Part shown: positions 15,054 through 19,439 of the stretch, in pieces
How the letters are laid out: each line of letters starts with the position of its first letter
Numbering within the stretch: position 1 is the stretch's first letter
Source of the DNA: Methanospirillum hungatei JF-1
GTDB taxonomy: Archaea; Halobacteriota; Methanomicrobia; Methanomicrobiales; Methanospirillaceae
Assembly (NCBI RefSeq): GCF_000013445.1
Contig: NC_007796.1
Span: 186,001-250,000, forward strand
Direction of reading: 5' to 3'
DNA length: 64,000 nt
Translations under genes and position numbers: made by a program
The notes under the pieces: generated by a model
What the model saw: the letters and a program-made list of their open reading frames with translations, nothing else
Told to the model about the DNA's origin: nothing
The model's database searches: none

Positions 15054-16069
15054 TCACCGGGCTGGTATGGATCCTGGTATCGTGGCATCTGTTCAACCAG
15101 ATTCAGCGAGTTATTATGTAACCTTATCGAAATACATCTCTCAAATTCTCTGACATGGGTAGTTAATGTGCGAAGATCATCTTTCAGTTTTTGCATATCA
15201 TCTTCCAGTTGTCCCTGAATGTCAGCCTGTTCGGTAATAATCTGACTCAAATCATGAATCTCCTCTTCATTCTGTTCAATCTTCTTCTCCAGTTCTGCTA
15301 TCTCCTTTTCAAGCCTGGTGATATGTTCACTCTCTTTATGGGCCAGCTGGTCGATATCATGAGTGATTGCATCAAATTTCTGCCGGTTTGGAAATATCCG
15401 GTTAAAGATTGAAGTGACCATGCCTGGCTTTTGTAATGGTAGAGGCTCCCTTGGCTTTTTCGAGATGATGACTTCTGCCGGTCTGATAAGTTGAGACTCC
15501 CGCAGGTATCCGCGTCTTACTACTGAAAATATAGTGTCTTCCGGGTATTTGCTATTATATTCAAGTCCGACTGCCATATGCAGGGTATCATCAAATATGG
15601 CTCCGGGTTGTGGGTCGATGGGTGTCAGTTTGCCTGATGAGAGTACCTGCTGATACATCCCTTCAATATTGAGATGATAATTTTCATGGACCTCCCGCAC
15701 GGCATCACAGGTGGGATTTTTTGAGCTGTGCATCATGCGACATAACGAATCTGCAATAACCAGTAATTTTTTTGCTTGATCTGCCTGAAGGTCTTTCTTT
15801 TTCAATTCCTCATTTTTTCGTGTTGTCTCAATGAAATCTTTGAATTCTTTTTTAATGGCGTTATATTGAGATTCAAAATGTTCTGCTTTTTTCTGAAGAT
15901 CGGTGATATCCGGATCAACCATTGGTGACATGTTTGTCTTTGGGAGAATATAGCTTTTATTATATTGTCCCCCCTCATTGGTACAGGATGTACCTGGCAG
16001 GGAATGAGTCAGGTTTAAAAGATTTTGCGTCTGCCTTATCTTTAGATAATCCGCGATTGCTGCATTCAA
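15050..16069 (-). CDS. GrpE-like nucleotide exchange factor with coiled-coil tail
   Basis: The middle of this 339-residue protein matches GrpE. A long helix (about residues 54-100) is followed by a helix bundle and the beta-wing FDDTLHMAVGLE, YPEDTIFSVVRRGY and LIRPAEVIISK (about 159-204). GrpE proteins are normally near 180-210 residues; here a further 130 residues follow, with a strong coiled coil at about 235-310. It would exchange ADP on the Hsp70 encoded next. The long frame uses a TTG overlapping the toxin stop. The ATG at 15931 (MSPMVDPD) begins closer to the conserved part and may be the true start, with about 134 bases of possible promoter before it. Confidence 0.8.
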   Translation of the reverse strand: MNAAIADYLKIRQTQNLLNLTHSLPGTSCTNEGGQYNKSYILPKTNMSPMVDPDITDLQKKAEHFESQYNAIKKEFKDFIETTRKNEELKKKDLQADQAKKLLVIADSLCRMMHSSKNPTCDAVREVHENYHLNIEGMYQQVLSSGKLTPIDPQPGAIFDDTLHMAVGLEYNSKYPEDTIFSVVRRGYLRESQLIRPAEVIISKKPREPLPLQKPGMVTSIFNRIFPNRQKFDAITHDIDQLAHKESEHITRLEKEIAELEKKIEQNEEEIHDLSQIITEQADIQGQLEDDMQKLKDDLRTLTTHVREFERCISIRLHNNSLNLVEQMPRYQDPYQPGE

Positions 16070-16602
16070 GACCAGGATTCATCCTTCTTTCCCTGAAGCT
16101 GTTCCAGCAGATCAAGGATTAGTCCATATTGTTCAGATCCGATTCTGAAACCTTCACGGATCATTACCTGGAGAATCTTTTTTACTTTCTCTTTGGATAT
16201 GATTCTGTTTTTCACAAGAGTAAAAAGAATAAATGCAGATCCTCTCACTTCAATCTGAAACATTTCTCCGATCTCACGACTTATCCGGTCATCAACTATG
16301 GCGATGCCTTGTAGTTCGTCCGAGAGAGCCAGAACCTCCATCTCCCCTGGGTGAAGATCACGGTGCAAACCAGAGAATTTCTCTAAAAAATGCTCTTCTG
16401 GCGGTTTCAGGGTAAGAGATTCCTGCGTAATGAGATGAGCGGTAACTTCAGCATCAGGATGTCCCTGTACCCTCCCGATCGTAACAACCTCTGCATATAC
16501 CGCAGGGGGGATGTAATTTTCTGAATGTACCTCTAAAGCGAGATGGAGAGCTCCGGCCCTTGCAAAATAGATCAGTGGTGATGAATCAAATACCCGAATC
16601 AT
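16066..16602 (-). CDS. PIN-domain toxin, DUF3368 family
   Basis: This 178-residue protein begins IRVFDSSPLIYFA, the first acidic residue of a PIN nuclease. Further acidic motifs are HPGEMEVLALSDE and AIVDDRISREI, in the usual order and spacing of DUF3368 PIN proteins. Such proteins are RNases that act as toxins paired with UPF0175 antitoxins, and exactly such a gene precedes it with a 4-base overlap. The catalytic acids appear intact. The stop codon abuts the long GrpE-like reading frame. Because the antitoxin carries an early stop, the toxin may be poorly translated or tamed by other means. Confidence 0.85.
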   Translation of the reverse strand: MIRVFDSSPLIYFARAGALHLALEVHSENYIPPAVYAEVVTIGRVQGHPDAEVTAHLITQESLTLKPPEEHFLEKFSGLHRDLHPGEMEVLALSDELQGIAIVDDRISREIGEMFQIEVRGSAFILFTLVKNRIISKEKVKKILQVMIREGFRIGSEQYGLILDLLEQLQGKKDESWS

Positions 16603-16904
16603 ATCTTCATTGCTGCCTGATAATCATCCTGAATATCCTGAACTGATACATTAAGGATTACATTGTTCTTCTTCAGGAGATCTATCATTTCTCTCACAGA
16701 TATCTCACATATCTCTGCGGCTTTTCCGAGTGAAATACGTCCCTGCCTGTACTGATCCAAAGCATTTTTTCTGAGTTCTTCATCAAGACCTGAGGACAAG
16801 GCCATTCGAATCAGGGAAGAGCGATCTAATGCAGTAAGAAGAGACAGTGCTTCAATCTTTCGTGATATTTATGAGGTAGGGCGTATTGAAATGACAGAAA
16901 CCAT
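16599..16904 (-). pseudogene. UPF0175 antitoxin with premature stop in its DNA-binding part
   Basis: From the ATG at 16904 the frame reads MVSVISIRPTS, then TAA (16869-16871), then ISRKIEALSLLTALDRSS and on without interruption to 16599. The part after the stop matches the end of a ribbon-helix-helix domain followed by the UPF0175 body (YRQGRISLGKAAEICEISVREM). A shorter frame could restart at ATG 16805, giving 68 residues without the DNA-contacting strand. Either the antitoxin lost autoregulation but can still bind the toxin, or it is dead. It overlaps the PIN gene by 4 bases. A sequencing error is also possible. Confidence 0.7.
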
Positions 16905-17175: not shown

Positions 17176-17304
17176 TTAGTCATGTCCATGGCAGCAGTTC
17201 TCATGAAAGTGATGGTGTTCACTATCGTGGATATGCTCATGGGTGTGTACTTTTCCATTATGCTCATGTGCATGTTCATGCTTATCTGAATCGTGACAAC
17301 ACAT
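17176..17304 (-). CDS. Small His/Cys-rich putative metal-binding peptide
   Basis: This 42-residue frame starts MCCHDSDKHEHAHEH and ends HENCCHGHD. It has 15 His and 4 Cys, the latter as two Cys-Cys pairs near the two ends. A strong ribosome binding site (GGTGGAGG) lies 8 bases before the ATG. The composition fits a nickel, zinc or cobalt storage or buffering peptide, like the His-rich tails of HypB or Hpn, but I know no family for it. It lies alone, between the toxin-antitoxin operon and an insertion sequence. The function is inferred from composition only. Confidence 0.7.
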   Translation of the reverse strand: MCCHDSDKHEHAHEHNGKVHTHEHIHDSEHHHFHENCCHGHD

Positions 17305-17675
17305 TCTTTTTGCCTCCACCTCATATTATTGAATAGCCATAGATAAGGTTTCTGTCGGTGTTACGAATTTTAAGTGTGTATTAAGCCATATATCCAGAAA
17401 ACATCTCAAATCATTGTTTTTTGTGTGGTAATAAAAAAAGTGTTACGTTTTTTCACTGATACATATGTAGCAGTTCATCGTTTATGAGTGGAATTTTTTA
17501 ATAGGAAACTTTTCTCGCCATGAGATCTGATATTTTAAAAAAATATTCTTAATTTGACCACCTTAATTTTGTTGCATGTTCTCATTGAATGGTCTGAAGT
17601 ATGGTTGATAATGAATTTAAGTTAATAATTTCATCATATTCAGGTAAGATCCTTTTTTATGGAATTCTGTTTGTT
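17305..17675. other. Intergenic region between His-rich gene and insertion sequence
   Basis: About 370 bases, strongly AT-rich. It presumably holds the promoter of the His-rich gene: an ACTTAAAAT-like element lies about 65 bases before its ATG, near 17369. Two stretches, GTGTTACGAATTTT near 17358 and GTGTTACGTTTTTT near 17448, loosely resemble the GTATTACGAAAT motif before the importer cassettes. No gene is supported. Confidence 0.4.
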
Positions 17676-17679
17676 ACAA

Positions 17680-19439
17680 GAGGGTGTTGCACCAATGATC
17701 AATATCATGCAGGATCACAAATGATCGATCTCTACCCCTTAAGCTATCAACCAAAATAGACTAATTGATGTATGAACCTGCATGTATCAATTCCCACTTT
17801 ACATACTGTGTTTGCAAAAATATAGGAAAAACCTGAACCTCTTGACGGTTTTATAATATTCGTAGCAAATTCTTTAATTTTAACTATACCCTCAAATCTG
17901 ATAAGTTTTTTTATATTATGCACTAATGCAGCTAAAAAGAATTCTCCCTCGCAATTCTCTTTCCCTTTTTGAGAGAAACTCCTAAACCTCATATTATGTT
18001 TCATATTACCAAAAACTGGTTCGACCATGTATTTTCGTTTTCGATATAACTCTCTACCAGTGGGGGATTTCACACGTACTTCCATAACTCGTTTACAAAT
18101 TTCCTGAGTTGTTGCTTGTTTCTCTCTGTTCATAAAAGATTGCCAAACAAACGTCCCGATACTTTGCAATTCCGGAAATGTGATTATTTCTCCCATACAA
18201 ATCGCCCGACATATCATTTCCATTCGTGAGATATACCCATCATTATCTGAATATTCTGGAATTTTTCTTTCTTTAGAAGGAGGGATGATGAGTTGAATGC
18301 CATAATCCAATTCTGCTAAAGAATTCGGGTATGAGAAATAACCTGCATCAGATAGTAGTATATTAGGCGAAATTGATGGATGAATACCCGTAAAAAGGTC
18401 TTCGAGTTCATTTAGCATAGGTATTAATAATTTTTTATCGTTTTGCTCATCTGATATCATTGCAGCGAGGATAAATTGATTTTCAGAAACGATAATCTGC
18501 CCATTATACCCTTGAATCCAGCCATTGGTGGTTGACATTATCTGACTTTCAGGATCAGTGAGATTTACTTTTGAATCTGAAGATGGCTCTTTTTTAGGCT
18601 CTAAAGGCTTTCTACCTCGTTTCTTTTTACCCGATTCTAATTCTTCTTTTTCGCGGTCCAGAATCTTTTCTTCTTGTTTTTTAGATTCGATATCATGTCG
18701 TTCAATTAATTTCTCTTTAGCCCGATTAAGAACTTCCTTTCGTTTTTCTTTTGTTGAAAGATGCTCAGGTAGTCGGTTAATCTCCATATCCTGAATATTT
18801 ATATCATCGTTTTCTAACTCATCAATTTCCTGTGATTCATCAAAAAGCCGACCTAGCTCTGCTTCAAGGTATTTTAATTTTTTATTGGCTGATAAAGAGG
18901 CATTACAGCCAAATTTTGATCCATCGAGGGCTAGGACACCGATTCTTGCTATCCCGGATTCTACGATAATTTGAGATAATTGTTTAAAAAGGGATTTGAT
19001 TTCTTTTGAATTATTCTTCTTGAAACGATAGATCGTTGTATGGTCAGGTGTAAGATTATTGGCGACGATCCGATATCCAATATCATAATGGCAGCACATC
19101 TCAATTTTTCTGCTAGATTTTTCTCCACGAATCATTGAATAAATTATTATTCCAAGCATTGAACGAGGATCAAAAAAGGCAGAACCGCGACCATCGTCAC
19201 GATATTTATTAATAAATGGACTAATATCGAGAATCGAAAGAATTTCTAATATGCCATAAGTAATATCATTTTCAGATAGCCAGTCCATCGCATTGACAGG
19301 GAGTAAAAATTGTTGTTCATTACCATATCCTCTAATCATGTTATAGCGATGAGACATATAATATATTGATCTTAATAATATATATAATTAAGCTTTAATA
19401 ATTTATATTAAGCTTTTTTTGTGTTTGTGCAACAGCCTC
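17680..19439. mobile_element. IS1182-family insertion sequence, apparently complete
   Basis: The element is about 1.76 kb and is bounded by imperfect 16-bp terminal inverted repeats that match at 14 positions (GAGGGTGTTGCACCAA on the left, GAGGCTGTTGCACAAA on the right when reversed). Directly outside both ends is the 4-base direct repeat ACAA (17676-17679 and 19440-19443), read as the target duplication. It holds one intact transposase gene on the minus strand. The intact frame and ends suggest recent insertion. Confidence 0.75.
17747..19357 (-). CDS. IS1182-family transposase
   Basis: This 536-residue protein has the DUF772-type N-terminal domain (about residues 40-115; DPRSMLGIIIYSMIRGEKSS, DHTTIYRFKK). 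A DDE domain follows, with LALDGSKFGCNAS for the first Asp and ILLSDAGYFSYPNS for the second, then a C-terminal part containing RKRKYMVEPVFGNMKHN for the Glu. A Lys/Glu-rich insertion lies between the first and second Asp (about residues 175-265). The order and the VEPVFGNMK motif are typical of IS1182 family members. Codon use is more AT-rich than in surrounding genes. Confidence 0.9.
   Translation of the reverse strand: MSHRYNMIRGYGNEQQFLLPVNAMDWLSENDITYGILEILSILDISPFINKYRDDGRGSAFFDPRSMLGIIIYSMIRGEKSSRKIEMCCHYDIGYRIVANNLTPDHTTIYRFKKNNSKEIKSLFKQLSQIIVESGIARIGVLALDGSKFGCNASLSANKKLKYLEAELGRLFDESQEIDELENDDINIQDMEINRLPEHLSTKEKRKEVLNRAKEKLIERHDIESKKQEEKILDREKEELESGKKKRGRKPLEPKKEPSSDSKVNLTDPESQIMSTTNGWIQGYNGQIIVSENQFILAAMISDEQNDKKLLIPMLNELEDLFTGIHPSISPNILLSDAGYFSYPNSLAELDYGIQLIIPPSKERKIPEYSDNDGYISRMEMICRAICMGEIITFPELQSIGTFVWQSFMNREKQATTQEICKRVMEVRVKSPTGRELYRKRKYMVEPVFGNMKHNMRFRSFSQKGKENCEGEFFLAALVHNIKKLIRFEGIVKIKEFATNIIKPSRGSGFSYIFANTVCKVGIDTCRFIHQLVYFG

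Follow-up and report, generated by a model that had tools for sequence, protein, structure and literature searches.

A 42-residue, histidine- and cysteine-rich peptide is encoded on the minus strand of the Methanospirillum hungatei JF-1 genome by a short frame that, judged by its conservation, is a real gene under protein-level selection. The gene, conserved in Methanospirillum and Methanothrix, is often located beside nickel/cobalt import genes and, in Methanospirillum, has a promoter element in common with one of them, for which reason its product probably carries or buffers metal for the nickel supply of methanogenesis. It is predicted to act as a cytosolic nickel (or cobalt) buffer or relay, encoded by a stand-alone gene and co-expressed with import (probability about 0.6). 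The window, i.e. the whole stretch of 64,000 nucleotides that was analyzed, corresponds to bases 186001-250000 of the single-contig genome of 3,544,738 bases.

The microprotein gene and its coding evidence

The following features were assigned to the gene (positions in the window):

17176..17304, minus strand: open reading frame of the microprotein (42 residues, rich in His and Cys), from ATG to TAA; relatives start at the identical position and stop at almost the same one, and pN is far below pS
17313..17320, minus strand: ribosome-binding site GGTGGAGG, 8 nt 5′ of the ATG; in relatives, GGAGGTGA is found about as far from the start codon
17163..17175, minus strand: T-rich tract CCTCTTTTTT directly 3′ of the stop codon, a possible archaeal terminator
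17359..17384, minus strand: element TTAATA-N14-GTAACA upstream of the gene, a match to KTAAYA-N14-GTAMYA

The product is MCCHDSDKHEHAHEHNGKVHTHEHIHDSEHHHFHENCCHGHD, and the coordinates include the stop codon. Translation of the minus-strand frame confirmed the 15 His and 4 Cys counted in the initial annotation, and the strong, well-placed ribosome-binding site and the clean start and stop described there were also recovered. Upstream, the frame is open as far as a GTG at 17319 (47 aa); the ATG was taken as the start codon because the relatives begin there. A stem-loop terminator was not found for the gene. With 19 His and Cys residues, compared to at most 12 in the richest 42-residue stretch of 60 Markov-simulated 64-kb sequences, the composition is far above chance.

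The initial annotation had made its proposal depend on conservation of the frame, which proved to be strong. In 200 of 200 same-length pairs pN was lower than pS, with medians of 0.13 and 0.91, respectively. The pooled base differences at codon positions 1, 2 and 3 amount to 1184, 775 and 3262, and the comparison of JF-1 with the Methanospirillum genome G007 gave 6, 9 and 21 changes. Length changes among the relatives comprise whole codons, and the ribosome-binding site and the start codon are conserved. The frame might be suspected to be open by chance, or the sequence to be non-coding, since serial His codons are CAT/CAC repeats and several frames are therefore open, but the uniformly low pN, the third-position bias, the whole-codon length changes and the retained translation signals refute this reading for practical purposes.

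Distribution, layout and comparison with known proteins

Close relatives of 38-42 residues were identified in 3 of 12 Methanospirillum genomes and in 28 of 50 genomes of the Methanothrix family; about 515 further genomes from the phylum were also searched and contained none. When 393 genomes were sampled evenly across the phylum, the peptide family was present only in the JF-1 genome and in the Methanothrix family. Among 232 genomes of Methanomicrobiales, the three Methanospirillum genomes are the only clear positives; weak His-rich matches in other members of this order were rejected due to poor scores, and most are located within longer frames. A search of 84,980 species genomes for the pattern MCCH...CCHxH resulted in 15 stretches, of which nine are chance frames, such as those in Phocaeicola, Neobacillus and other bacteria. 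The six real ones belong to the M. hungatei isolate M59 and to five contigs of Methanothrix or related Methanosarcinales, whose peptides have 41 residues and whose start codons are preceded by a GGAGGTGA-type site. The viral contigs searched contained no relative, and plasmid matches were discarded as weak, low-complexity hits to His-rich segments, which belong for the most part to annotated transporters.

The M59 copy has the identical 42 residues with one synonymous change, on a contig that is nearly identical to JF-1, and the most divergent Methanospirillum copy (G007) is 71% identical. In the Methanothrix family, the profile search revealed 38- and 41-residue forms with up to three matches per genome, including one copy lacking one Cys (L145) and two weaker matches of partial or decayed appearance (L153, L154). 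The Methanospirillum copies resemble the 41-residue form more closely. Together with the patchy presence in Methanospirillum, this suggests that the gene was passed between the two groups, the peptide being too short for a tree.

The relatives follow the consensus MCCHxxDKHxHxHxHxGxxHxHEHxHDxxHxHxHxCCH(xH), or, in a form with Lys after the Gly, GKxHxHEH in its middle part. The plan is fixed and consists of a CC-H start, a His ladder with Glu/Asp spacers (HxHxHxH...HxHEHxHD) and a CCH(xH) end. Of the 28 complete copies listed, 27 have retained all four Cys, and each of the 28 has at least 12 His. No hydrophobic or membrane segment and no signal peptide is apparent in the peptide, and profile searches of Pfam, NCBIfam and PDB gave no match to it. 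Based on its composition, the peptide very likely binds metal; its plan suggests that several divalent ions would be bound by the Cys-Cys pairs together with the 12-15 His, while the rest of the chain would be flexible. AlphaFold modeling yielded a pLDDT of 63 and a pTM of 0.27, a low confidence from which no fold is claimed and which would not be surprising if the chain became ordered only around metal.

Several known proteins resemble the peptide in part. The His-rich tails of SlyD and HspA and the His-rich N-terminal region of some HypB proteins are metal-holding stretches serving nickel enzymes, and metallothioneins are characterized by a high Cys content in CxC/CxxC arrays. The peptide has a comparable His/Cys-rich, presumably metal-holding stretch, but is free-standing and lacks the isomerase, chaperonin and GTPase domains of SlyD, HspA and HypB. 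It was rejected as a HypB fragment (MCCH instead of a CxxCGC-type start, no GTPase domain, 42 aa in total, no Pfam match) and as a SlyD/HspA tail (free-standing frame, no PPIase or GroES domain, no Pfam or NCBIfam match). Bacterial metallothioneins are small metal-binding proteins, as predicted for the peptide, which is instead dominated by His, with 4 Cys in 42 residues arranged in two CC pairs and no CxC/CxxC arrays. NikN/CbiN-type subunits (e.g., PDGLE, PF13190) are also small proteins of nickel/cobalt import loci, but are membrane proteins, whereas the peptide has no hydrophobic segment.

The closest likeness is to Hpn and Hpn-2 of gastric Helicobacter, which are very small, His-rich, lineage-specific proteins of nickel traffic, with Cys-Cys pairs in Hpn (PMC4671568). 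With about 60-70 residues they are longer than the archaeal peptide of 38-42, whose layout, a regular series of HxH units spaced by Glu/Asp between two terminal CC pairs, is different; furthermore, they are linked to urease, the peptide to importers and mcrD paralogues. The peptide may work like Hpn, which it resembles in composition but not in layout, and no kinship is claimed. Literature searches for a protein of this type in Methanospirillum and Methanothrix yielded no paper, nor was a family model describing it found. It appears to form a new family within a kind already known.

Genomic context and promoter elements

In JF-1, the gene is located between an IS-type transposase upstream (17747-19357) and a toxin-antitoxin-like UPF0175/DUF3368 pair downstream (16066-16805). 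The similarity of M59 to JF-1 ends further upstream of the gene, consistent with a local rearrangement. The metal-import-rich surroundings of about 40 kb given in the initial annotation are real, but extend on one side only, from about 20.9 to 63.9 kb, where a long series of metal-importer-type genes is located (BtuF/FecB-FecCD, ABC pairs, Opp/Nik sets). The region 20903-63869 resembles a metallophore import island with FecB/BtuF-FecCD sets, several Opp/Nik-type ABC sets, two pairs of fused ABC exporter-type proteins and interleaved class-I SAM methyltransferases; similar methyltransferases occur with Opp/FecB genes again in Methanothrix regions.

In G007, the peptide gene is located between an alpha/beta-hydrolase gene and an mcrD paralogue, followed by a DUF4198 gene, and mcrBDCGA, nikR and a CbiM/NikM-type importer are found within 9 kb. 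The metal-related neighbours in Methanothrix genomes are:

NikMNQO-type importers: G480, G568, G563, G552, G542
CbiMQO: G573 (with a His-rich CDF gene), G560
NikR: G556
ZnuAB/ZnuABC-type importers with FmdE: G572, G461, G557
FecB/FecCD: G552, G565
Opp/Nik-type binding proteins: G374, G461, G556

Such genes are more common near the relatives than in control regions, and the linkage of the peptide gene to nickel/cobalt import genes is recurrent. A CbiM-family gene is located within 8 kb of 8 of 33 peptide loci (about 0.55 expected), which corresponds to about four independent cases when shared arrangements are grouped (P about 0.0025). Windows of up to 16 kb contained core nickel/cobalt/zinc genes in 8 of 20 cases around the peptide gene, compared to 2 of 40 among the controls (Fisher p = 0.0014); for a broader metal gene set, the numbers were 13 of 20 versus 8 of 40 (p = 0.0008). 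The reference proteins had been taken from the peptide regions, and related genomes are not independent. At G410/G549, G532, G546 and G553/G571, no recognised metal gene was found within about 8 kb. The zinc- and iron/cobalamin-type importers among the neighbours count against a settled nickel/cobalt identity, as does the affinity of His-rich chains for many metals. In several Methanothrix genomes (L161, L168, L169, L170), a conserved gene of about 122 aa without a Pfam match is located upstream of the peptide gene; one copy ends with HHCCQLCSLDD, and in two genomes it is visible only via an apparent antisense frame.

The Methanospirillum peptide genes are preceded by the direct repeat KTAAYA-N14-GTAMYA about 55-80 nt 5′ of the ATG (JF-1, M59 and G007). 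The element is also present before the nikM-type gene of JF-1, M59 and G009 and before stand-alone mcrD paralogues in G007 (L020:8293-8817), G002 (L104) and M59 (L106), which points to a function of these McrD copies in connection with nickel. The pattern was derived from the peptide, nikM and G007 sites, which are therefore discounted as independent occurrences, while the mcrD-paralogue sites of M59 and G002 are independent. At the N14 spacing, nine distinct matches were found versus 0-4 at other spacings, nearly all of them in promoters of the genes for which the loci had been fetched (nikR, cbiM, mcrD, DUF4198), a choice that favours such matches. The whole 3.54-Mb JF-1 genome contains five matches: one each at the peptide gene, at nikM and at a znuA-type start, the other two being located within unrelated genes. 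The znuA-type match (G000:C1:2364067-2364092, L229) is located directly 5′ of the start inside a znu-type operon and is due to chance or marks a second regulated promoter.

The A/T-rich spacer CTTAAAATT of the JF-1 element may hold the TATA box, as at a repressor site, and NikR is the obvious candidate regulator. The nikR promoters themselves do not contain the element. The delta-proteobacterial NikR site type, GTGTTAC-N13/14-GTAACAC (PMC545781), was rejected for the peptide gene, where it agrees in spacing and in its right half but not in its left; the nikR and cbiM promoters did not match it either, and the direct-repeat form emerged instead. Sigma-70 scans were set aside as not apt for archaea. 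In Methanothrix, 2.07 Mb searched on both strands contained no match to the Methanospirillum element. The Methanothrix peptide genes (e.g., L168, L169, L176) carry another conserved block about 150 nt upstream, TTATGC-N17/18-TGCTACAA, a possible operator that was not seen before the neighbouring nik genes and whose exact matches are rare or absent elsewhere in the fetched regions. A promoter element common to peptide and importer was found in Methanospirillum and none in Methanothrix.

Proposed role and alternatives

From its context and promoter, the peptide would be produced together with nickel/cobalt import, capture the metal on entry, keep it soluble and pass it to the nickel users of the methanogen, namely F430 synthesis and MCR assembly, hydrogenase and CODH. 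The initial annotation had guessed at a nickel, cobalt or zinc buffer or chaperone, which gains support from the recurrent linkage to such importers in other genomes and from the element common to the nikM-type gene and the mcrD paralogues. The importer promoter and the context point to nickel/cobalt as the metal, and to a relay or buffer over a store.

A zinc or mixed-metal buffer is an unlikely assignment: ZnuABC-type genes near the peptide gene in three Methanothrix genomes (G572, G461, G557), the element match at the znuA-type gene of JF-1 and the combination of Cys with His favour it, but the NikR, NikMNQO and CbiMQO neighbours and the promoter matches at nikM and the mcrD paralogues point to nickel/cobalt. 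A sink for excess nickel/cobalt, induced by high metal and serving storage or detoxification like Hpn or a metallothionein, would suit the His/Cys composition and the one copy near a His-rich CDF exporter-type gene (G573). Its nearest analogue would be Hpn, a nickel-sequestering protein whose expression NikR raises in response to nickel (PMC4671568). Such a sink is nevertheless rather unlikely, as the promoter element is shared with an importer gene and not with an exporter, and importers make up most of the metal-related neighbours. If the element is a NikR repressor site, the peptide would be produced under nickel shortage, a pattern more in keeping with a relay tied to import than with storage of surplus metal.

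The tiny size of the gene and its frequent proximity to importers would also be compatible with a metal-sensing leader or regulatory peptide, or with a partner subunit of a transporter, in place of a carrier. This is very improbable, since the gene is usually neither directly upstream of an importer nor in its operon, importers are found on both sides at offsets of 0.7 to 9 kb, and the gene has its own promoter-like region and start.

The nickel/cobalt relay may be extended to a more specific proposal, which is tentative. In Methanospirillum, the peptide could be a dedicated nickel relay within a nickel-limitation regulon, together with nikM-type importers and stand-alone mcrD paralogues, that steers imported nickel to F430 and MCR assembly at scarcity, the gene having been exchanged by transfer with Methanothrix sharing its habitat.

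Methanogens have a heavy nickel demand for F430, hydrogenase and CODH, and we know of no settled account of the route by which imported nickel reaches F430 synthesis. The peptide would be a concrete candidate for the nickel carrier on this route, being conserved in two major methanogen groups and, in one of them, having a promoter element in common with an importer gene and an mcrD paralogue; its small size would allow direct synthesis and titration.
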